Shown: positions 6,002-63,946 of the stretch, piece by piece
Layout: each line of letters starts with the position of its first letter
Numbering within the stretch: the first letter of the stretch is position 1
From: Pegoplata infirma
Taxonomy: Eukaryota > Arthropoda > Insecta > Diptera > Anthomyiidae
Length of the DNA: 64,000 nt
Assembly (NCBI GenBank): GCA_963921195.1
Contig: OY992540.1
Location: forward strand, 22,518,262 to 22,582,261
Direction: 5' to 3'
Notes under the pieces: model-generated
The model's database searches: none
What the model saw: the letters and a program-made list of their open reading frames with translations, nothing else
What the model was told of the DNA's origin: nothing
Position numbers and translations under genes: made by a program

Positions 6002-6757
6002 CAGTGGTGTAACAAATTGATTTTTTTTTTTTTTCAATTGAGTAGAGTTGTTGGACATTGTTTGGTTTTTATTTTTTGGCGCAAACTATATATTTATTGT
6101 GCAAAATCTTTTACTTTTTTTTGAGGACAAAATCAATGTAATAATGTACAATAATTTTGCTTGAAATTATAATTTCATGCTCAACAACACATGCCAAAGT
6201 GCTAAAATATGTTTTTTTTTTTTTTAATTTTAGAGAAATTTTACAAATAAATTTTAAGATATTTTCTGTGGTAATAATATCATCAGTTTAACGCCTATTT
6301 GTCAAGTTAACCGTTGCAAATTTTTAGAGATTTTTTCTTGTATCTCAATTAATTGAGTAGAAAAATGTTTAAAATTTAAGAACAAGATGAAATATAACGG
6401 TTGAAAATGTTTCTACAGTTTTGTTTTACTGGTCCTTATTTGGAAAATTTTTAATTTTTGCTGCTCCTACACCCTGGATTTGTTAAAAGACCTTATAAGT
6501 AAATGTTAAAATTTTGGAATAATCGATTAACTCTTTGTCCTCGCGAGAATCAAAGTTTCGAGTTTTGGGAAAAAAGTTACTCAATTAAAAAAAAACGAAT
6601 GCGTTAGAAAATGGATAAAAATATATTTAAGTTTACTACAATTTTGTTTCAGAAAATTTAAAAAAAAATAATTTCGGGGATTTGAAAAATGTGTTAAATT
6701 CAATTTTTTTTTTTGGTTCTCAAATTTATATGGGTTACGGATATCGCAAAAAGTTTA
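6002..6757. other. A+T-rich stretch, nothing recognised
   Basis: No gene, element end or repeat could be assigned here. The stretch contains T-runs and short hypothetical frames only. Confidence 0.55.
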
Positions 6758-37050: not shown

Positions 37051-37233
37051 ATTTATTTATTTTAACTCAAATTTTATTAGTTATTTTGTTTTAAGTTGAT
37101 ACTTATTGTTTTATTTTAAGTTTATGAGTTTATTGAGATTTAAAAATTTTCGCTAATGTTAAACCACGAGACTTTCTTTTAAATAATGGCGTCGTTGTTA
37201 AAATTGTTGAAAACTCATTTTTAACATGATTAA
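37051..37233. other. Short unassigned stretch between hAT and Penelope-like remnant
   Basis: A+T-rich, no features recognised. Confidence 0.4.
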
Positions 37234-38078
37234 GTGTGTTTTAATTTTTATTAAATAATAAAAATTAGTTATTTATTCGACCTTTTAATTGTGCAATGAA
37301 AAAGAGTTTATTCTGATTCGAGGCCTTCTCATGTTCCCCATTATGAATTAACATAACAAGTACTTATGATAACTCTACTTTCTTTATTAGGATATTCTCC
37401 CATTAAATACCCATAGCCAAAATTTTTGAAAGCAAGAAACTCTATGAGTATTTAATGGGAGAATATCCTAATAAAGAAAGTAGAGTTATCATAAGTACTT
37501 GTTATGTTAATTCATAATGGGGAACATGAAAAGGCCTCGAATCAGAATAAACTCTTTTTCATTGCACAATTAAAAGGTCGAATAAATAACTAATTTTTAT
37601 TATTTAATAAAAATTAAAACACACTTGGTAACCCTCTTGATACGAGAGAATTTGTTTTCTATAACAGAAGGCAAAAACAAAAACTGTATTTAACAACTAC
37701 CGAAGGTAGTATATGCAGTAACCAAAAAAACTTGCCTTCAAATTATATTTGGTGTAATGCTGGTGTAACTTCGAAAATCATATTTGCTTTCTCACTAAGT
37801 TGAGATTATTTAGAATATGAATATTTGATGTTTGCATGCTAACGGTATTACCTTATTTTCTAAAGAATTCTGATGATGGGGGAATTGGAACACCCCCGAA
37901 ACGATCGTCAATTCATTCCTGAAAATTGCCAAAATTTTTGAAAGCAAGAAACTCTATGAGTATTTAATGGGAGAATATCCTAATAAAGAAAGTAGAGTTA
38001 TCATAAGTACTTGTTATGTTAATTCATAATGGGGAACATGAAAAGGCCTCGAATCAGAATAAACTCTTTTTCATTGCA
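37234..38078 (+). mobile_element. Penelope-like element remnant with repeated units and ribozyme
   Basis: A 151-bp unit (GCCAAAATTTTTGAAAGCAA to TTTTTCATTGCA) occurs at 37416-37566 and again at 37928-38078, reading as identical. The first unit and what follows it, to about 37622, is also inverted at 37234-37412, so the left half is a palindrome. A hammerhead ribozyme fold immediately precedes the second unit. Penelope-like elements are known for partial tandem copies with pseudo-LTRs, inverted flanking pieces and type I hammerheads in those repeats. No reverse transcriptase frame survives in this remnant, so the assignment depends on the architecture and ribozyme. Confidence 0.6.
37855..37926 (+). 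ncRNA. Type I hammerhead ribozyme (Penelope-type)
   Basis: The invariant core is complete. CTGATGA lies at 37870-37876 and GAAA at 37898-37901. The minimal stem III is A-C/G-U around the loop GATC (37901-37908), followed by cleavage base C37909 in the GUC triplet. Stem I inner helix: GAATT (37865-37869) with AATTC (37910-37914). After an internal loop, an outer helix: ATTTTC (37855-37860) with GAAAAT (37921-37926). Stem II: GGGGG (37878-37882) with CCCCC (37893-37897); T37877 is unpaired, the one departure from the ideal fold. A tiny stem III and bipartite stem I are typical of hammerheads in Penelope-like elements. Confidence 0.8.
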
Positions 38079-38320
38079 TTTTTAACATGTTTATCATCAA
38101 AATGATAATTTCCCACATGGCGCCATCTTGAAATAAAAAGTAGTTCTTACATACTTAATTCAAAAAAATATAATTTTAAAATCATAACTCTTAACTCTTA
38201 ACTCTTAAAATTTCAACTTAATTATTAAAATTTTTCTAAAAATTTTTGGGATTTTAAAAATGAGTATGAACATTTTTGATTTCAATACGATTTTTTCCCT
38301 CCGTTTAACAAAAGTTTTTA

Positions 38321-42365: not shown

Positions 42366-42863
42366 GTAATACTGCTTATATTATTATTGTATCTATCGAG
42401 ATAAAAACTATAGAACGAAATGAAATGGAATGAGGAACGACATGGAATAAAATTTTTTTAATGAACATTTTTTATCAATAATTTTTTTTTTTAATTTTTC
42501 ATCGAAATTAACATGATCTAGGTCTAACCGGGGTTATTTTAATTTAAAAAAAAAACTCTACACAGTATTTGTAAAGGACCTAAACCACCACAATTAAATA
42601 AAATAGAGATTTGTGTAATACTGCTTATATTATTATTGTATCTATCGAGATAAAAACTATAGAACGAAATGAAATGGAATGAGGAACGACATGGAATAAA
42701 ATTTTTTTAATGAACATTTTTTATCAATAATTTTTTTTTTTAATTTTTCATCGAAATTAACATGATCTAGGTCTAACCGGGGTTATTTTAATTTAAAAAA
42801 AAAACTCTACACAGTATTTGTAAAGGACCTAAACCACCACAATTAAATAAAATAGAGATTTGT
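42366..42863. repeat. 249-bp perfect tandem duplication
   Basis: 42366-42614 and 42615-42863 read as identical, from GTAATACTGCTTATATTATT to AATAGAGATTTGTG. The unit contains AACGAAATGAAATGGAATGA. No coding region. Confidence 0.85.
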
Positions 42864-43861
42864 GTAGGGAAGAATTTCAGAGAGGGGTTCTCACATTCTG
42901 ATTTTAGGACATGTTAGTTAGAAACAGTTTAAAAGAACAATGTCACAAACTTTCCAACCCACTTTATTATCGCTTTATTCAACTGTAGAGTATTTAAAAT
43001 AAGAACACGACATGCAAAAAAAAAATGTTGAAAGGAAACCAAAGCAGCCGCGTCATTGTGGGCTTGTGACCCCGGCCACATTATTGGGCTACCAAAAAGC
43101 AACCCCGAAATACAATAAAAATCCAAAGGACACTTGATAACTCTTGATATGAATTCGATACAATACCTTGTGTCTCATATGAATGAGTAGAAGTGGAACA
43201 ACAAAAAAAAAGTGTTGAACGAGTGTTCGCAATTTTAATAGTTGCAAAACATCACAGTACAAAGAAAAAAAAAGCAAAAAATATAAATTAATTCAAATAA
43301 AATTATGTTACGCATGTTTGGTTGATTGAATAAATGACACCATCATACCCTGTTGAGACATACACAAAAACTCATTGACTCTTTTATTTTCCTTTAGGAA
43401 CTTTTTATATGAGTTTTTGACGCGGCTGGTGTTTTGAGGCAGCCTTATTATAAAGTATTTTTTTTTTTTTTTTTGATATTTGAATTGTATCAAAACATTT
43501 TACGGTTCGCTGACAGCCCTAGCCAAAAAAAATGTTATTATTGTTGCTCAAATAATGACAGCGTAAGGGAAAATAATGTGTTGTTAACCTTTAAACAAGG
43601 TAAGGATTTTATTATTATTTTTTTTTACTTTGTCTAATAGCAACAAATCCTGGGATCATCCGTTGACAACGAACTATGCCAGCGTAGCTAACTAACGCTA
43701 AAGGTATATGCTCAAAACACATGCAATTTCTGCAATTAAAGTGTCAAACTATGACAGCCAACGTTGGAATCAAAGAAAATTTTAAAAATCTTTATTTTAA
43801 AAGGAGAAAAAAAAACAGAGATTAATTTTTTAACGTTTCTTTAAAATGATTTCATTAAAAA
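42864..43861. other. Unassigned stretch
   Basis: No gene or element was recognised. Several ~60-codon frames lack motifs. Confidence 0.5.
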
Positions 43862-47286: not shown

Positions 47287-49659
47287 ATGGCTGACGCCCA
47301 AGCATCTGAAATTGCTTCGGAAATAATAAATATGCCAACATTAATCTGGGCGATAAAAAGCTTCAGGCCCTATAAATCCCCGGGACCTGATGGTATAATC
47401 CCGGCTGAGTTGCAGCAAGTGTCGGACTATATAGCCCCGTTGCTGTATAATCTATACACAGCATGCATCAACTGGTCGTATATTCCTTTAAAATGGAGGG
47501 ATACCAGAGTCGTATTTATCCCGAAGGCTGGGAAAAGTTCCCACACAGCTCCGAAGGATTTCAGACCAATTAGTCTGTCTTCTTTTTTGTTAAAGACAAT
47601 GAAACGAATGATAGACTCATATTTGCGTAGAGTGATTGACCCGAGGTTGTTTTCGACAAAGCAACATGCATACAGCAAGGGACGATCAACGGAAACAGCT
47701 CTTCATGAGCTCGTTGGTACCATCGAGAGATCGCTTTCGGTAAAGGAGTACACTATGGTGGCCTTTCTTGATATTGAGGGGGCTTTTAATAATGTCATCC
47801 CAGAATCGATAATATTGGCATTGTCTGGTCTGGGAGTAAAGCGTGAAATCGTTTTAATGGTGGAAAGCCTACTTGCCAGTAGACGTATAACGTCTGAATT
47901 GGGAGCGTCCGTCATATCTCGATTTGTCAATAGGGGCACACCACAAGGAGGTGTTCTTTCGCCGCTTCTTTGGAACCTGGCACTGAATTCAATGCTACTA
48001 TCTCTAGAAGCACGTGGTTGTCATGTTGTCGCATATGCTGACGATGTCGCGATAGCGGTAAAGGGGAAGCATCTGCCAACATTGCGGGACATTCTTCAGG
48101 GTTCTCTGAAAGATCTGTCTAAATGGGCAAGAGACTGTGGTCTAGGAGTTAATCCTAGTAAAACAGAGCTTGTTTTATTTACAAGGAAAAATAAGATTCC
48201 TGCTTTTGATCCTATTTCTCTGGACGGTACTGAAATCACCTTCTCAGATGGAGCCAAGTATCTTGGAGTATTTCTAGATAGGAAGCTGAATTTCAGGCGT
48301 AATATTGAGGAACGGGTGAGAAAAGCAACGATTGCTTTGTATTCCTGTAAAAGGGCCATTGGAAAACGATGGAGTTTTAGCCCTCAAGTCGTTCATTGGA
48401 TCTATACAGCAGTGGTGCGTCCAATTTTGCTGTATGGAATCATTGTCTGGTGGCCTGCTTTAGAAACAAAATCGAACTGTGACTTTATCACGAAGGTACA
48501 GAGAATGGCGTCAATGTGCATCACTGGTGCTCTTCGTACTACACCTACGGCTGCATTAGAAATCCTCCTTCACCTGATACCCTTGGACATATTGGGTAGG
48601 CAGTATGCAGCTGCGTCGGCAATTCGACTTAATAGCACGCTGCAATGGAGGAGCAGCGATTGTGGCCATAGCGCGATCTTGAAAAAGATAACAATACCAC
48701 AAAATGTGGATTGTGCTCCCTCTTTGAGCCTCTTTGAGCGCCACTTTACCACTATGATACCATCCAGGGAGTCTTGGATGGGGGATACTCCGGGAAGTGG
48801 AGCTACCATAAATTTTTACACAGATGGATCGAGGCTGCACGAACAAGTGGGCTTTGGGGTCTATTCGGAAGAGCTTGGATTGAGCCTGGCTCGTAGATTG
48901 CCAGATCATTGCAGTGTCTACCAGGCAGAGATGCTGGCAATAAAGGAAGTGGCTGACTGGTTGAGCTGCAATGTCTTGTCTACAACCGCAGTCAACATCT
49001 ATACTGACAGTCAAGCCGCGGTCAAGTCCCCGGATTCAATGTTTCTGAAAACAAGATCTGCCCTTAACTGCCGCACGTCTTTAAATGAGATGGCCAAGCA
49101 GTTTAACATACGACTCATATGGGTCCCAGGGCACAGAGACATTCCAGGGAATTGCAAAGCCGATGAGCTTGCAAGACTAGGAACTACCTTACAGGTTCCA
49201 ACAGAATTGGAATGTGTTGGTATGCCTCTAGAAACTTGCAAGCAAAACCTACGGCTTTGTTCTGCGACGGAGACTAATCAAAGATGGGCAAATGGATGGA
49301 CGTGTGAGACAACACGACTGATTTGGCCTTCTCTTAATCAGGGGCGCACAAGTAAGCTGATATCGCTTCCAAGAGGAGAGATTTCAACGGTGGTTTCTAT
49401 AATTACCGGACACTGTCTTATAGGGAAGCACGCAGAGCGGTTAAATGTGCCGTCGAATGACTTTTGCCGAAGTTGCATGGATGAAGAGGAGTTGGAAACT
49501 ATCGAACACTTTATTTGCCATTGCCCGGCACTTTCTGGTCAGCGACTTGCTTCACTGGGATCTAGGGAGCTGTACGATCTTTCAGATTTGTCGGATGTTA
49601 AAATTCAACATCTAAGGAGTTTCATAAGAAGCTCAAAATGGTTTAACGACAGGGACTAG
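47287..49659 (+). CDS. LINE ORF2 fragment: reverse transcriptase + RNase H + zinc knuckle
   Basis: An uninterrupted frame of 790 codons. RT motifs in order: YKSPGPDGI (about 28-36), RPISLSSF (about 93-100), FLDIEGAFN with catalytic D162, TPQGGVLSPLLWNL (218-231), YADD (250-253), LGVNPSKTELVLF and YLGVFLDRKLNF. An RNase H domain follows: FYTDGS (D513), YQAEMLAI (E548), YTDSQAA (D574), WVPGHRDIPGN (H616) and KADELAR (D626). A C-terminal knuckle has C727, C730, H741 and C746. The order RT, RNase H, knuckle and the sequence style fit the LOA/I/R1 group; I favour LOA-like. The first ATG is inside the target duplication, so Met1 is not the element's own start. All catalytic residues are intact, but with no endonuclease or promoter the copy is not autonomous. 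Minus-strand frames opposite it are shadows. Confidence 0.93.
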   Translation: MADAQASEIASEIINMPTLIWAIKSFRPYKSPGPDGIIPAELQQVSDYIAPLLYNLYTACINWSYIPLKWRDTRVVFIPKAGKSSHTAPKDFRPISLSSFLLKTMKRMIDSYLRRVIDPRLFSTKQHAYSKGRSTETALHELVGTIERSLSVKEYTMVAFLDIEGAFNNVIPESIILALSGLGVKREIVLMVESLLASRRITSELGASVISRFVNRGTPQGGVLSPLLWNLALNSMLLSLEARGCHVVAYADDVAIAVKGKHLPTLRDILQGSLKDLSKWARDCGLGVNPSKTELVLFTRKNKIPAFDPISLDGTEITFSDGAKYLGVFLDRKLNFRRNIEERVRKATIALYSCKRAIGKRWSFSPQVVHWIYTAVVRPILLYGIIVWWPALETKSNCDFITKVQRMASMCITGALRTTPTAALEILLHLIPLDILGRQYAAASAIRLNSTLQWRSSDCGHSAILKKITIPQNVDCAPSLSLFERHFTTMIPSRESWMGDTPGSGATINFYTDGSRLHEQVGFGVYSEELGLSLARRLPDHCSVYQAEMLAIKEVADWLSCNVLSTTAVNIYTDSQAAVKSPDSMFLKTRSALNCRTSLNEMAKQFNIRLIWVPGHRDIPGNCKADELARLGTTLQVPTELECVGMPLETCKQNLRLCSATETNQRWANGWTCETTRLIWPSLNQGRTSKLISLPRGEISTVVSIITGHCLIGKHAERLNVPSNDFCRSCMDEEELETIEHFICHCPALSGQRLASLGSRELYDLSDLSDVKIQHLRSFIRSSKWFNDRD

Positions 49660-55074: not shown

Positions 55075-57912
55075 TCTATATATATAAAAGAGTGTGGTGA
55101 CTGACTGACTGACTGACTGACTGATTGGCAATAATCATCGCCCAGCCCAAACCGCTGAAGCTAGAGACTTGAAATTTGGAATGTAGGTTCGGCTCCCGAC
55201 AAAACCACCCACTAAGAAGGGATTTTTGGAAATTCCGATTCTAAGGGGGCAAAAGGGGGAAAATAGGGCCCTTTGGGGGATTTTGTATCTTTTGAACTAA
55301 TAGTCCTAGAAACTTCAAATTTGAACTCTAGGATTCTCTCGCGGAAATAAAATTTCGAAAAAAATATTTTTGGAAAATTCCGCCTCCAAGGGGGGAAAAA
55401 GGGGAAAATAGGGCAAATTGGTACATTTTTTATATTCTAAACAAATGGTCCCAGAAACTTGAAATTTGAAGTCTAGGACCCTCTCGCGGAAATAACATTT
55501 TGGAAAAAGTAATATTTTGGAAATTCCGTTTCTAAGGTGGGGGGAGGGCGAAAATAGGGCAAGTTGGTACATTTTGTATCTTCTGAACTAATGGTCCTAC
55601 AATTTTGAAATTTTGAATATAGGATACTCTCGCGGAAATAAAATTTTGAAAAAAGTACTTTTTTGAAAATTCCGGTTTTAAGGGGGACAAAAAGTGGGAA
55701 ATAGGGCAATTTGGTGAATTTTTAACTAATGGTCCTAGAAACTAGATATTTGAACTATAGTATCCTCTCGGGGAAAAAACATTTTTTTACTAAAATTTTT
55801 TCACTCAAAATTTTTTTTCACTCAAAATTTTTTTTCACTCAAAATTTTTTTTCACTCAAAATTTTTTTTTTTACAAATTTTTTGTTTTACAAATTTTTTT
55901 TTTTACAAATTTTTTTTTTTACAAATTTTTTTTTTTTACAAATTTTTTTTCACTCAAATTTTTTTTTTTCCTCAAAATTTTTTTTCACTCAAAATTTTTT
56001 TACTCAAAATTTTTTTTTCACTCAAAAATTTTTTTTTACTCAAAATTTTTTTTCACTCCAAAAATTTTTTTACAAAGTTTTTTTTAACTCAAATTTTTTT
56101 TTTCACTCAAAATTTTTTTTCACTCAAAAAATTTTTTTTTTGGTGGAAATAGGACGATTTTGAACATTTTCTATATTGTGAACTAATGGTCCCAGAAACC
56201 TCAAATTTGGACTATAGGATCCTCTCGCGGAAATAATATTCTGAACAAAGTACTTTTTTAAAAAGGCACTTCTAGAAGGGGAAAAGGGGGAAAATTGGGC
56301 AATTTGGTACATTTTCTTTTCTCTGACCTAATGGTCCTAGAAACTTAAAGTTTGGACTATAAGATCCTCTCGCGAAAAAACATTCCGAAACAAAGTTTTT
56401 TTTTCAATTCCGCTTCTAGGGTGGTAAAAAGTGGGATAATAGGACAATTTGGTACACTTTGTATGTTCTGAACTAATTTTCCCAGAAACTTAAAAATTTT
56501 GACTATGGGATCCTTCGCGGAAATAACATTGTGAAGAAAGCTCTATTTTGAAAATTTCACTTCTATGGGGGAAAAAGGGGGAAAGTAGGGTAATTTTGTG
56601 TCTGCTGAACTAATTGTCGTAGATCCTTGAAATTTGGGCTGTACGATCCTCTCGCGGAAATAACTTTCTGAAAGAAGTACTTTTGGAAAATTCCGGTTTG
56701 TATCTGCTGAACAAATAGGACTGCACGATCCTCTCGCGTGGACTGCACGATCCTCTCGCGGAAATAACATTCTGAAAAAAGTACTTTTTTGAAAATTCCT
56801 CTTTAAAGGGGAAAAAGAGGAAGGTAGTGCAATTTTGTATCTGCTGAAAATATGGTCCTAGATACTTGAAATTTGGAGTGAACGATCCTCTCGCGGAAAT
56901 AACATTCTAAAGGAAGTACTTTTTCATAATTCTGGGGGAAAATCGGTAAAGTAGGGCAATTTTGAATCTGCTGAACTAATGGTCCTTAATATTGAAATTT
57001 AAACTGTACGATCCTTTCGCGAAAATAACATTCTTAAAGAAGAACTTTTTCAAAAATGCTGCTTATACGGGGAAAAAGGGGGAAAGTAGGGCAATTTTGA
57101 ATCTGCTGAACTTAAGGTCCTAGATACTTGAAATTTGAAAAAGGGGGTGAGTGGGGTAATTTTGAATATGCTGAACTCATGGTCCTAGATACTTGAAATT
57201 TCAACTGTACGATCCTCTCGCGGAAATAGCATTGTTAAAGAAAAACTTTTTTTAAAAATTAAGCTTCTACGGGGAAAAGGGGGAAAGTAGGGCAATTTTG
57301 TATCTGCTGAACTGTCATTGTTAAAGAAAAACTTTTTTAAAAATTCCGCTTCTATGGCAAAAAAGGGGGAAAGTAGGACAATTTTGTATCTGCTGAACTA
57401 ATGGTCCTAGATACTTAACCGAAAATAACATTCTAAAAGAAGTACTTTTTTGAAAATTCGTTTTTAAAGGGGGAAAATGGGGAAAGAAGGGCAATTTCGT
57501 AGCTGTTAAACGAATGGTCCCAGAAACTTGAAATTTTAACTCTATGATCCTCTCGCGGAAAAAACATTTTGTTAAATGTAATATTTTGAAAAATCCTTTT
57601 ATAAGGGTGGGGGTGGGGGTGGGGGGTAGAAGTGGTTTAATAGGGCAATTTTGTATCTTCTGAACAAACTTGAAATTTTGAATCTGGATGCACTCGCGGA
57701 AATTATTTTTTGAAAAATATATAGTTTTTTGAGAATTTTGGTTTTAAGGAGGCCCAAAAGGGGGAAAAAGGGCAATTTGCTAAACTTTAAACTAATGGTC
57801 TTAGAAACATGACATTTGGAATATGGGATCATATCGCGGCAATAACATTCTAAAAGAAGTACTTTTTTTAAAATTTCGCTTTTGAGGGGGAGAAAAGGGG
57901 AAAGTAGTGCAA
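55075..57912 (+). mobile_element. Helitron unit 1, no 3' end
   Basis: It contains the 5' terminus, then ~125-135 bp units with CTCTCGCGGAAATAACATT and AATGGTCCTAGAAACTTGAA, the T-rich CACTCAAAA block (55785-56140), and more units. It stops at GGGAAAGTAGTGCAA, where unit 2's 5' end begins. The equivalent place in unit 2 is near 60615. Confidence 0.8.
55785..56140. repeat. TTTTTTTTCACTCAAAA minisatellite, block 1
   Basis: About twenty units of ~17-20 bp alternate CACTCAAAA or TTACAAA with T-runs. A second block is at 58608-58895. The translated Phe-rich frame (55729-56163) is an artefact. Confidence 0.8.
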
Positions 57913-60900
57913 TCTATATATATAAAAGAGTGTGGTGACTGACTGACTGATTGGCAATAATCATCGCCCAGCCCAAACCGCTGAAGCTAGAGACTTGAAA
58001 TTTGGAATGTAGGTTCGGCTCCCGACAAAACCACCCACTAAGAAGGGATTTTTGGAACTCCCGATTCTAAGGGGGAAAATAGGGCACTTTGGGGAATTTT
58101 GTATCTTTTGAACTAATAGTCCTAGAAACTTCAAATTTGAACTCTAGGATCCTCTCGCGGAAATAAAATTTCGAAAAAAATATTTTTGAAAAATTCCGCC
58201 TCCAAGGGGGGAAAAAGGGGAAAATAGGGCAAATTGGTACATTTTTTGTATTCTAAACAAATGGTCCCAGAAACTTGAAATTTAAAGTCTAGGACCCTCT
58301 CGCGGAAATAACATTTTGGAAAAAGTAATATTTTGAAAATTCCTTTTCTAAGGTGGGGGGAGGGGGAAAATAGGGCAAGTTGGTACATTTTGTATCTTCT
58401 GAACTTATGGTCCTACAATCTTGAAATTTTGAATATAGGATACTCTCGCGGAAATAATATTTTGAAAAAGTACTTTTTTGAAAATTCCGGTTTTAAGGGG
58501 GACAAAAAGGGGGAAAATAGGGCAATTTGGTGAATTTTGAACTAATGGTCCTAGAAACTAGATATTTGAACTATAGTATCCTCTCGGGGAAAAAACATTT
58601 TTTTACTAAAATTTTTTCACTCAAAATTTTTTTTACTCAAAATTTTTTTTTCACTCAAAATTTTTTTTTACAATTTTTTTTTTTTTTTTAAATTTTTTTT
58701 TTACAAATTTTTTTTCACTCAAATTTTTTTTACTCAAAATTTTTTTTCACTCAAAATTTTTTTTTTTTACTCAAATTTTTTTTTCACTCAAAAATTTTTT
58801 TTTTTACAAATTTTTTTTCACTCAAAAATTTTTTTTTTACAAATTTTTTTTCACTCAAATTTTTTTTCCACTCAAAATTTTTTTTCACTCAAAAAAAATT
58901 TTTTTTTGGGGGGTAAATAGGACGATTTTGAACATTTTCTATATTGTGAACTAATGGTCCCAGAAATCTGAAATTTGGACTATAGGATCCTCTCGCGGAA
59001 ATAATATTCTGAAGAAAGTACTTTTTTAAAAAGGCACAAAGGGGAAAATTGGGCAATTTGGTACATTTTCTTTTCTCTGACCTAATGGTCCTAGAAACTT
59101 AAAGTTTGGACTATAAGATCCTCTCGCGGAAAAAACATTCCGAAACAAAGTTTTTTTTCAATTCCGCTTCTAGGGTGGTAAAAGGGGGATAATAGGACAA
59201 TTTGGTACACTTTGTATGTTCTGAACTAATTTTCCCAGAAATTTAAAAATTTTGACTATGGGATCCTTCGCGGAAATAACATTGTGAAGAAAGTTATATT
59301 TTGATAATTATGCTTCTAAGGGGGAAAAAGGGGAGAGTAGGGTAATTTTGAGTCTGCTGAACTAATGGTCGTAGATCCTTGAAATTTGGGCTGTACAATC
59401 CTCTCGCGGAAATAACTTTCTGAAAGAAGTACCTTTTGAAAATTCCGGTTTGTATCTGCTAAACAAATAGGACTGCACGATCCTCTCGCGGAAATAACAT
59501 TCTGAAAAAAGTACTTTTTTGAAAATTCCGCTTTAAAGGGGGAAAAAGAGGAAGGTAGGGCAATTTTGTATCTGATGAAAATATGGTCCTAGATACTTGA
59601 AATTTGGAGTGAACGAACCTCTCGCGGAAATAACATTCTAAAGGAAGTACTTTTTCAAAATTCTGGGGGGAAATCGGGAAAGTAGGGCAATTTTGAATCT
59701 GCTGAACTAATGGTCCTTAATACTTGAAATTTAAACTGTACGATCCTTTCGCGAAAATAACATTCTTAAAGAAGAACTTTTCAAAAAATCTGCTTCTACG
59801 GGGAAAAGGGGAAAGTAGGGCAATTTTGTATCTGCTGAACTAATGGTCCTAGATACTTGAAATTTGAACTGTACAATCCTCTCGCGGAAATAATATTCTA
59901 AAGGAAGTACCTTTTGAAAATTCCATGGGAAAAAGGGGGTGAGTGGGGTAATTTTGAATCTGCTGAACTCATGGTCCTAGATACTTGAAATTTCAATCGT
60001 ACGATCCTCTCGCGGAAATAACATTGTTAAAGAAAAAGTTTTTTAAAAATTACGCTTCTACGGGGAAAAGGGGGAAAGTAGGGCAATTTTGTATCTGCTG
60101 AACTAATGGTCCTAGATACTTAAAATTTGAACTGAACAATCCTATCCCGAAAATAACATTCTAAAAGAAGTACATTTTTGAAAATTCGTTTTTAAAGGGG
60201 AAAGAAGGGCAATTTCGTATCTGCTAAACGAATGGTCCCAAAAACTTGAAATTTTAACTCTACTCTCGCGGAAAAAACATTTTGTAAAAAGTAATATTTT
60301 GAAAAATCCTTTTATAAGGGTGGGGGTGGTGGGTAGAAGGGGTTTAATAGGGCAGTTTTGAATCTTCTGAAAAAACTTGAAATTTTGAATCTGGATGCTC
60401 TTGCGGAAATTAATTTTTGAAAAATATATTTTTTTGAGAATTTTGGTTTTAAGGAGGCCCAAAGGGGGAAAATAGGGCAATTTGCTAAACTTTAAATTAA
60501 TGGTCTTAGAAACAAGACATTGGGAATATGGGATCATATCGCGGCAATAACATTCTAAAAGAAGTACTTTTTTGAAAATTTCGCTTTTAAGAGGGAGAAA
60601 GGGGGAAAGTAGTCCAATTTTGTATATGCTAAAGTAATGGTCCTAGATACTTGAAAATTGGACTGTACGATCCTCCCGCGGAAATAACATTCGGAAAGGA
60701 ATACTTTTTTAAAAATTCCTCTTTTAAGGGGAAAAAGAGGGGAAAATAGAGCAATTTTGAATCTGCTGAACTAATGGTCCTAGATACTTGAAAATTGGAC
60801 TGTACGATCTTTCCGCGGAAATAACATTCGGAAAGAAATACTTTTTTAAAAATTCTTCTTTAAGGGGGAAAAAGGGAGAAAGTAGGCCAATTTTGTATCT

Positions 60901-62200
60901 GCTGAACAAATAGTCCTAGATACTTGAAAATTGGACTGCACAATCCTCTCGCGGAAATAAAATTCGAATGGAGGACTTTGTGGAAAATTCCGTCTCTAAG
61001 AGGGAAAAAGGGGAAAGTAGGCAATTTTGTATCTGCTGAACTAATGGTCCGGGAGACTTGAAATTTGGACTGTACGATCTTTTCGCGAAAATAACATTCT
61101 GAAAGAAGTACTTTTTTAAATATTCCAATTTTGAGTTGGAAAAAGGGGAAAAGTAGGGCAATTTTGTATCTGCTGAAATAATGGTCTTATATACTTGAAA
61201 TTTGGACTGTACGATCCTCTCGCGGAAATAACATTCTCAAGGAAGTAATTTTTTGAAAACTCTACTTTTAAGGGGGGAAAAAGGGGAAGGTAGGGCAATT
61301 TTGTATCTGCTGAACTAATGGTCCTCGATACTTAAAATTTAACTGTACGATCCTCTCGCGGATATAACATTCTAAAAGAAGTACTTTTTTTTAATTCTGC
61401 TTCTACGGGGGAAAAGGGAGAAAGTAGGGCAATTTTGAATCTGCTTAACTAATAGTCCTACATACTTGAAGTTTGGACTGTACGATCCACTCGCGGAAAG
61501 AACATTCTAGAAGAAGTACTTTTTTGGAAAAATCTGCTTCTATAGGGGGAAAAAGAGGGAAAGTAGGCCAAATTTGAATCCTCTTGCGGAAACAACATTC
61601 TAATGGAAGTACTTTTTTGAAAATTTCGCTTCCACGGGGAAAAGGGGGAAATTAGGGCAATTTTGTATCTGCTGAACTAACGGTCCTAGATACTTGGATT
61701 TGGAGTGTACGATCCTCTCGCGGAAAAAACATTCTGAAAGAAGTACTTTTTTTGAAAAATTTGTTTTATAGGTGGAAAAGGGGGAAAAGTAGGGCAATTT
61801 TGTATCTGCTGAACTAATGGTCCTAGATACTTGAATTTTTAACTGTTTTGTTTCTGCTGAACTAATGGTTCTAGATACTTGAAGTTTTGACTGTACGATC
61901 CTCTAGCGGAAATAACATTCTGGAAGAAGCACTTTTTTAGTAAATTCTGCTTCTAGGGGGGAAAATGGGGAAAGTAGTTCAATTTTGTATCTGCTGAATT
62001 AATGGTCCTAAATACTTGAAATTTGGACTGTACGATCCTTTCGCGGAAATAACATTCCTAAATAAGTACTTTTATGAAAATTCTGCTTCTAATGGGGAAA
62101 AAGGGAGAATGTAGCGATACTTAAAATTGGTACTTTACGATCCACTCGCGGAAATTACATTCTGGAAAAATAATTTTTTGAATTTTCGCTTCAATTTGGT
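56300..62200. repeat. ~130-bp Helitron-borne satellite with CTCTCGCGG core
   Basis: Dozens of diverged units. The consensus order is AATGGTCCTAGATACTTGAA, GGACTGTACGATCCTCTCG, CGGAAATAACATTCTGAAAG, AGTACTTTTTTGAAAATTCC, GCTTCTAAGGGGGAAAAAGG, GGAAAGTAGGGCAATTTTGT and ATCTGCTGAACT. Minus-strand frames here (many begin MPYFPLF) are repeats of this unit. Confidence 0.85.
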
Positions 62201-63109: not shown

Positions 63110-63946
63110 GTGCATGATTCCGTTAACTTTCGACCGCTGTCCATCACATCGAACGACGATCACCTGGAACTCCAGGGGATAGCCGTCCGATCGGGAGAGG
63201 ATGAGATAGAAATTGTGAACGTCTACATCCCTCCAACAGCGGCCTGCCGTTCCGGATATGGCCCTTCCATTGCATTTTTAATGGAAGGCGATAATAGAGT
63301 CTTACTCGGTGACCTAAACGCTCACCATGATAGCTTACATTCTGAGCTGGAAAATGATGCGAGAGGTAACATCTTCGCTGATGAAATTGACAATACAAAT
63401 TACTGTGTTGTCAACGAGAGGAACCCTACTCGCATCACCGCAAACTGTCGTAGCTCACCAGATCTTTCGATAGTCAGCCCTGAACTTTTGGCCTTCATCA
63501 CCTGGCATGCCGACATCGCCCTCAACTCTGACCACATCCCAATTACCGTCAAGATTGCAAAAAGTCCGGACTTTATATCTGCTATAGAACGGACTTTTGT
63601 AAACTTTCGGAAGCAATTCCGCAATCTTACTTCTCCCTCAACAACATCGAAGGGAGAACGTAATATAAGAAAGATCTTGGTCGATGCGAAAAACCGCTGC
63701 ATCCTGGCTGGACGCATAGCAAAAATGCGCCCAAATTTCCTGCCGGAGGTATGTCGCTTAGCAGATAGACGAGATGCCATCCGGAGGAAAAATGCAGCGG
63801 ACCCTCGTTCAAGGCAACTGAACGCCGAGATTGATGCTCTAGTCTCTGCTCACTGCAAGGACCTGTGGTTATGGCACCTTGAAGAGTCGGATAAAGGTTC
63901 TAAGCGTCTCTGGTCGGCGATAAAAAAATCTTTCGAATCCCCGTAG
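63110..63946 (+). pseudogene. LINE AP-type endonuclease, main part
   Basis: This 278-codon frame continues the preceding piece after the shift. It begins HDSVNFRPL and contains VNVYIPP (37-42), LLGDLNAHH (65-73), RNPTRI, SSPDLSIVS (115-123) and SDHIPITV (140-147, with the catalytic His). These are the conserved motifs of LINE endonucleases, which nick target DNA. The linker ends KRLWSAIKKSFESP. The TAG at 63944 appears to be a frameshift: the next frame reads RRSGRPTLTFESGTPLDSQ to the window end. Met1 is not a real start. Confidence 0.85.

Follow-up and report, generated by a model that had tools for sequence, protein, structure and literature searches.

Penelope-like elements (PLEs) have been proposed as the helpers of retrozymes on circumstantial grounds (Cervera and de la Pena 2020, PMC7229834). 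The protein of the Anolis PLE cuts and extends both target strands, and internal starts are described in an AC-rich stem-loop at two sites, the optional tail being the interval between them (PMC11167929). In the same system, the start site was reported not to differ between the strands, the hammerhead was dispensable for insertion in vitro, its in vitro cutting required protein, and the ORF begins at stem II (PMC11167929). Rotifer PLEs carry an optional 31-bp tail at one inverted pLTR, and self-priming on the antisense template was favoured for them (PMC3846280). How PLEs insert, the origin of head-to-head copies and of the tail at one end, and the movers of animal retrozymes are questions that bear on these papers.

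We compared with these systems a hammerhead-bearing insertion in a window of 64,000 nucleotides from Pegoplata infirma, the window being the whole stretch of DNA that was analysed. The insertion at 37229-38076 is probably a non-autonomous retrozyme-like retroelement whose 512-nt unit is moved in trans by a PLE; we place the probability of this reading at about 0.72.

The hammerhead motif and the insertion that carries it

The first-pass annotation had described a complete hammerhead core in order at 37851-37926, including a bipartite stem I of 5 + 6 pairs and a two-pair stem III with a 4-base loop, and each of these parts was found where it had been placed (Table 1). The core CUGANGA / GAAA / NUH runs in order with stem I open, as in type I hammerheads, and the loops of stems I and II are both present. 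The one irregularity that it had pointed out, an unpaired U at the base of stem II (position U10), is also there. This extra U after A9 can be regarded as a tolerated variant because of published data on the CChMVd hammerhead, in which a U in place of the extra A10 made trans-cleavage 3-4-fold faster (PMC3705267).

Table 1. Coordinates of the hammerhead motif and of the insertion around it (unit positions are counted from the predicted cut, u1 = A37910 and u512 = C37909).
Feature	Position	Strand	Detail
Left target-site duplication CATTTTTAACATG	37216..37228	+	13 bp, exact repeat
Filler ATT, 3 nt, between duplication and left arm	37229..37231	+	letters
Left arm, inverted partial unit, u229 to u45	37232..37416	-	98.9% identity to unit
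Arm-junction overlap, 4 nt	37413..37416	+	
Right arm, u16-u512 then u1-u167	37413..38076	+	99.8% identity to tandem unit
u136-u212, region common to PLE 3' end	37533..37609	+	alignment
TAA, u399-401, in TCTCAC-TAA-GTTGAGA	37796..37798	+	DNA-transposon-like inserts here in other copies
Type I hammerhead motif	37851..37926	+	predicted cut after C37909
Stem I, outer	37855-37860/37921-37926		6 pairs
Stem I, inner	37865-37869/37910-37914		5 pairs
CUGAUGA	37870-37876		
Extra U between A9 and stem II (U10)	37877	+	sequence
Stem II	37878-37882/37893-37897		5 pairs, all G-C
GAAA	37898-37901		
Stem III	A37901-U37908 and C37902-G37907		2 pairs enclosing GAUC
GUC	37907-37909		predicted cleavage 3' of C37909
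Right target-site duplication CATTTTTAACATG	38077..38089	+	13 bp

A loose type I descriptor matched only once on the two strands of the window, at the hammerhead site, and had no match in 60 dinucleotide shuffles per strand. The plain core pattern likewise occurred once in the 64 kb against 0.00 expected, which bears out the annotation's view that a chance origin is unlikely. The lack of a significant Rfam score would speak for a chance match; with these counts, the position of the motif upstream of a PLE-like start region and its retention in 49 copies, that explanation is scarcely credible.

The annotation had named the lack of a significant covariance-model hit as grounds for giving up the hammerhead, and no such hit was obtained. 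Rfam Hammerhead_1 aligned in the correct register at 37867-37912 with a non-significant 11.3 bits (E 4.9) against a cut-off of 34, the RF00163 gathering cut-off being a curator's threshold and not a biological definition. The model was absent from the matches at E<=10 when a longer stretch was used, and the scan of the window gave no gathering-score match anywhere. The PLE loci L052-L055 and the insertion L003 likewise gave no RF00163 gathering-score match.

The folding of the 76-nt hammerhead stretch was not unusually stable (z -1.03). In the fold of lowest energy (-17.1 kcal/mol) the cleavage strand is base-paired to the core; this predicted inactive fold is 7.9 kcal/mol more stable than the hammerhead fold (-9.2 kcal/mol). 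Within 37871-37909, GAUGAU can pair with AUCGUC, which is predicted to switch the ribozyme off. Two ATG codons at 37873-37878 overlap the core and stem II, as the Anolis PLE ORF begins at stem II, but open a frame of 22 codons only.

The motif was identical to the majority sequence in 31/49 complete copies (31 insertions), and it varied less than its neighbourhood: we counted 15 changes over 3528 motif sites and 77 over 10566 sites of u230-450 (P 0.016). The annotation had proposed that further copies be searched for compensatory stem changes. Copies were indeed found, and they are very alike. Only C37860U (L038) and C37895U (L039) are stem changes present in all copies of multi-copy insertions; each keeps a G-U pair, so that the non-compensatory changes named as the annotation's other ground for refutation were not seen there. 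Both are one-sided, and there was no two-sided change among the 49 complete copies. The hammerhead is genuine as a sequence motif and is a predicted ribozyme of a known kind.

The motif sits inside an 848-bp insertion built head to head, an element that the annotation had not recognised. On the + strand of the window, the duplicated target CATTTTTAACATG occurs only twice, at 37216 and 38077. The left arm ends on the outside at 37232, in start site B (..AAAACACACTT), and the outer end of the right arm is start site A (..TTTTTCATTG). The right arm spans one unit boundary and contains a direct repeat with a spacing of 512, and an inverted repeat joins it with the left arm. A further, internal site A lies at 37564 within the region common to the PLE, and an internal B at 37626 just outside it.

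The insertion holds no ORF of 100 aa or more, and a 497-nt part of the unit folds strongly (z -5.05). The six frames of the unit gave no match to 120 PLE-type proteins (best E 0.43). Derivation of the unit from a PLE ORF by internal deletion was rejected on this ground and because the frame from ~37871 found no relative at E<=10 among 7 candidates.

Other copies contain DNA-transposon-like inserts at u399-401, whose termini are CAAGGGAAGT..ACTTCCCTTG and which come with duplicated TAA (L063:599-1186, L064:599-1186, L067:199-797). TAACAA/TAATTG footprints occupy the same place in L021, L036, L037 and L042, the two arms of L036 carrying different ones. The site was thus targeted repeatedly, within a small hairpin. 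Elsewhere in the window, a LINE-type reverse transcriptase with RNase H and named relatives from flies lies at 47287-49659, and an endonuclease-reverse transcriptase domain at 63110-63946. A perfect 249-bp tandem duplication at 42366-42866 (2.0 copies, 100% matches) is either very recent or an assembly artefact, and long satellite-like arrays with periods of ~135-146 bp and GGTCCTAGA..CTTGAAATTT blocks occupy 55222-62031.

The repeat family, its start sites and its arm junctions

The genome (1.384 Gb, 813 contigs) was searched with two parts of the unit. A 300-nt query, for which 40 of 1487 candidates were scored, gave at least 47 matches with identities of 96-100%. These 47 correspond to 32 separate insertions, and every one was read. 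The 167-nt query u1-u167 gave at least 44 matches, 40/44 of them 100% identical (40 of 825 candidates scored); its first six rows supplied six further insertions, so that 38 were read in total. The near-identical matches and the many candidates indicate a sizeable and recent family, which offers hundreds of candidate young copies with both start points readable from the genome. Its members combine the non-coding tandem units and type I hammerhead of non-LTR retrozymes with the head-to-head or tandem copies, the tail at one end and the short target duplication of PLE insertions.

Target duplications of 12-14 bp flank 20/32 insertions and are exactly 13 bp in 15/32; among mismatched left-right flank pairs, taken as a control, 12-14 bp duplications were found in 16/992. 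L003 and L031 contain tandem units, as would be expected if the unit were a satellite-like repeat spread by DNA recombination and not by reverse transcription. This origin is very improbable given that the insertions are dispersed over five large contigs (among the matches listed), mostly have their own short target duplication and have fixed ends.

The arms of the typed two-armed insertions face outward, and their outer ends fall at two places, site A at ~u164-u169 (..TTTTTCATTG) or site B at ~u223-u234 (..AAAACACACTT). One side carried A and the other B in all 24/24 typed two-armed insertions among the 32. The same was seen in 3/3 typable cases among the six further insertions, giving 27/27 over the 38 read (P 7e-9 if the ends were independent at 0.5), with types assigned by hand and unblinded. 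The end of L066 was scored as B though it lies at ~u223, a few bases short of the others. L007 and L030 were rejected as exceptions, as wider stretches show their B ends beyond later inserts.

The 11/38 insertions left untyped comprise L031, which is a B/u140 insertion and not A/B; L005 and L025, each with one end unresolved and without a good duplication; and L041, in which neither end was typed. The others are the one-armed L043 and L044 (A) and L045, L046, L063 and L065 (B), and L067, whose left side lies outside the stretch read. A rare third end type was seen at GGCCT(CG) in L031:1964 (u140) and in the PLE copy L054:4385. The two copies end at matching places (the u140 equivalent), a possible minor start site.

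In 22/24 insertions a distance of over 10 nt on the unit separated the inner ends of the two arms. The 24 arm junctions comprised overlaps of 0-6 bases (14) and 11-21 bases (3) and gaps of 2-32 bases (7). As the inner ends are mostly unmatched, two separate joined cDNAs are favoured over one folded-back cDNA. In fold-back self-priming a single cDNA copies itself, so that one priming event yields both arms, a route that palindromes at the inverted junction had suggested for bdelloid PLEs (PMC3846280). The two exceptions L010 and L019, with inner ends within 10 nt, fit such copying, as does a mean circular distance below expectation (105 vs 128, P 0.06). The short PLE copies L068 and L070, in which the ends of the two arms are no more than 10-12 nt apart, point the same way, yet their near-equal inner ends may be a common RNA 5' end. 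Fold-back predicts a repeat of one and the same arm and inner ends that meet at one unit position, in conflict with the 22/24 junctions, and the arms begin at two different sites in 27/27 insertions, which makes it improbable. The A/B pattern agrees with two target-primed cDNAs, each begun on its own target strand, and is a poor match for fold-back self-priming.

The predicted hammerhead cut was crossed by 37/48 arms, by only ~3 and ~10 nt in L008 and L009, and therefore the template was mostly uncut or religated. The longest arm, in L003, reaches 2115 nt or 4.1 units, and is the longest head-to-tail run in the 38 insertions. A circular template would be the simplest account, and uncut multimeric RNA would also be expected to give such arms. 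Inner ends lay within 3 nt of the cut in 1/48 cases against 0.56 expected; with no pile-up there, a cut 5' end has left no footprint. The apparent stop at the cut of arms in L009, L024 and L026 arose from alignments broken at the unit boundary; with a tandem query these arms continue to u503, u498 and u500. The inner ends are non-uniform (KS P 1.6e-6), a result that carries no weight because the copies were found by a u230-u512 query, which biases inner ends away from that region.

The hammerhead could be a passenger that no longer matters, the PLE enzyme reading uncut multimeric transcripts. The unenriched cut, the more stable inactive fold and the weak model score all agree with this, and Anolis PLE hammerhead mutants still insert in vitro (PMC11167929). 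G12 is lost in L028 and both G12 and C17 in L034, each with one complete copy, so that the losses may or may not have been present in the template. A passenger would not account for the lower variation of the motif, a modest signal at P 0.016, and with no head-to-tail run beyond 4.1 units in the 38 insertions, only a rare source would supply templates that are long multimers. On balance we regard the passenger role as rather unlikely.

Sequence variants were compared between the arms of 31 insertions. Eleven one-insertion variants were present in every covering copy of both arms, among them 6/6 copies in L003 and, twice, 4/4 in L031, which indicates one source sequence in those insertions. A further 94 one-insertion variants covered by both arms were not in every copy and reflect later mutation or copying error. 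Among multi-insertion variants covered by both arms, 3 agreed and 37 disagreed; 24 of the 37 disagreeing rows are recurrent u139-147 deletions or u398 transposon footprints, and 13 are unexplained. The arm differences at u398 were rejected as a sign of two templates, since they look like TAA-CAA-TAA / TAA-TTG-TAA footprints of a DNA transposon.

A Penelope-like element of the same genome

A genome search for GIY-YIG gave five loci (88/88 candidates scored). Three of them, L049/L053, L050/L054 and L051/L055, form one PLE family, 97-99% alike over their common part, and L048/L052 is a relative at 85-86% over the longer matches; the fifth locus, L047, was left out of the comparison. The ORF of L053 contains RVT_1 (reverse transcriptase) and GIY-YIG domains, both above the cut-off, and its named relatives are fly proteins. 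A hammerhead-like motif lies 3' of the ORF, with CAGAUGA (U4 = A), an extra U, stem II GAAACUC/GAGUUUC, a stem III of at most one pair, and a cut expected before GGC. The stem II of L052, GAUACUC/GAGUAUC, is altered on both sides in a way that preserves the pairs. The PLE ends A and B lie ~64 and ~99 nt past the expected cut.

The first-pass annotation had linked the hammerhead to Penelope-type elements by geometry, and the link holds beyond geometry alone, as the unit shares its start region with the PLE 3' end. The alignment of u136-u212 with that end scored 34, against 17.1 +/- 2.4 for shuffles (maximum 26, n=300) and 29 for the best other stretch among 434 from the PLE loci. Both carry, in the same order, the 8-mer GGCCTCGA and an exact block of 16 nt, TAAAAGGTCGAATAAA, and in this alignment the PLE end A falls within ~5 nt of the A of the unit. 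Duplications of 13 bp were also found at the PLE copies L054 and L071. These likenesses support a link between the hammerhead unit and the PLE of the same genome.

A search with the PLE end gave at least 53 matches (40 of 604 candidates scored), including 15 loci with a minus/plus pair within 1 kb. All 15/15 pairs were head to head and 14/15 were A/B, the letters having been read for 6/15 and the other 9 typed by match ends alone. L068 was unclear by match ends and A/B by its letters, and the other 13 were A/B by match ends. The remaining copy, L069, is A/A and has no repeat of 9 bp or more as a duplication.

Four of the six short PLE copies read (L068, L069, L070 and L072) have an arm end at L053 position 6671-6674, and ~180 nt upstream of the motif are missing from L068, L069 and L070, between GTAAGT and TATAG. 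L053:6671-6936 accordingly looks like a putative RNA 5' end followed by a GTAAGT..TATAG intron, L072 sharing the end only. These copies look like cDNAs of a spliced RNA that ran to the 5' end. The 512-nt family has no common inner end of this kind in a sample biased by the query; the absence fits an endless template and is given no weight.

The proposed insertion cycle and known systems

The reading that we prefer, a 512-nt retrozyme-like unit moved in trans by a PLE, can be laid out as a cycle of five steps. First, a multimer of the unit would be transcribed. Second, the type I hammerhead, present as a motif, would cut once per unit after C37909, and the ends would be religated to a circle. 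Third, the PLE protein would bind the common start region and cut an AT-rich target with a stagger of ~13 bp; the duplication is observed, and the shared sequence and equal duplication length point to the enzyme. Fourth, both nicked strands would prime reverse transcription, one at A and the other at B, on the same RNA or on RNAs from one source, in line with the A/B rule observed and the common source found for some insertions. Fifth, the extent of each cDNA would vary, in many cases exceeding one round, and the cDNAs would be joined head to head, as in the anatomy of the insertions.

A broader idea, towards which we lean slightly, is that PLE-type integration is two-headed, with an RNA carrying two fixed start sites ~35-62 nt apart, one per target strand, and the hammerhead-made circle serving as an endless template. 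If true, a two-headed reaction would account for the head-to-head structure as well as for the tail at one PLE end only. The family provides a testable rule, with A on one strand and B on the other.

Among known systems, the metazoan non-LTR retrozymes have a non-coding, AT-rich unit with a type I hammerhead, tandem units, target duplications of more than 4 bp and PLEs as suspected helpers, as here (PMC7229834). The unit here is 512 nt long against ~150-450 nt in those elements, and its hammerhead differs from theirs in the two-pair stem III and split stem I (PMC7229834). The insertions here are also head to head, whereas the main text of the retrozyme paper does not contain the word 'inverted' (PMC7229834). 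Plant LTR retrozymes (PMC4918200; features via PMC7229834) are similar as non-coding retroelements with a hammerhead and circular RNA, and differ in their type III hammerhead, LTRs and 4-bp duplications (PMC7229834). The circular RNA is a feature of the plant elements (PMC7229834) and a proposed intermediate of the 512-nt element. The plus-strand hammerhead of CChMVd also has one extra nucleotide between A9 and stem II; it belongs to a viroid, and the extra base is A and not U (PMC3705267).

PLEs with a pLTR, a tail and a hammerhead include Poseidon of Anolis (PMC11167929) and Pen2a of Adineta vaga (PMC3846280). Both share with the present family head-to-head arms, a tail at one end, a short duplication and a start site in AC-rich sequence 3' of the hammerhead, and unlike them the 512-nt element has no RT/endonuclease ORF (PMC11167929, PMC3846280). 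The tail interval is ~62 nt in the 512-nt unit, 35 in the PLE of this genome and 30-40 as published. The PLE family L052-L055 resembles the unit in its GGCCTCGA..AAGGTCGAATAAA start region, A/B ends, 13-bp duplications and extra U10. It differs from the unit in coding for RT and GIY-YIG, in its CAGAUGA, and in what seems to be an intron upstream of the motif.

A pairing rule for A and B over many insertions is not stated in the parts of the Poseidon and Pen2a papers available to us (PMC11167929, PMC3846280). To the literature found, the present analysis adds that rule across insertions, evidence against fold-back copying in the 512-nt family, and sequence evidence for a tie between a retrozyme-like unit and a PLE within one genome. 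With a 512-nt unit the element falls outside the reported size and is not a strict metazoan retrozyme, and without an enzyme it is not a PLE. On its sequence features, we propose that the 512-nt element works like a retrozyme moved by a PLE, which would have a candidate role as its helper.
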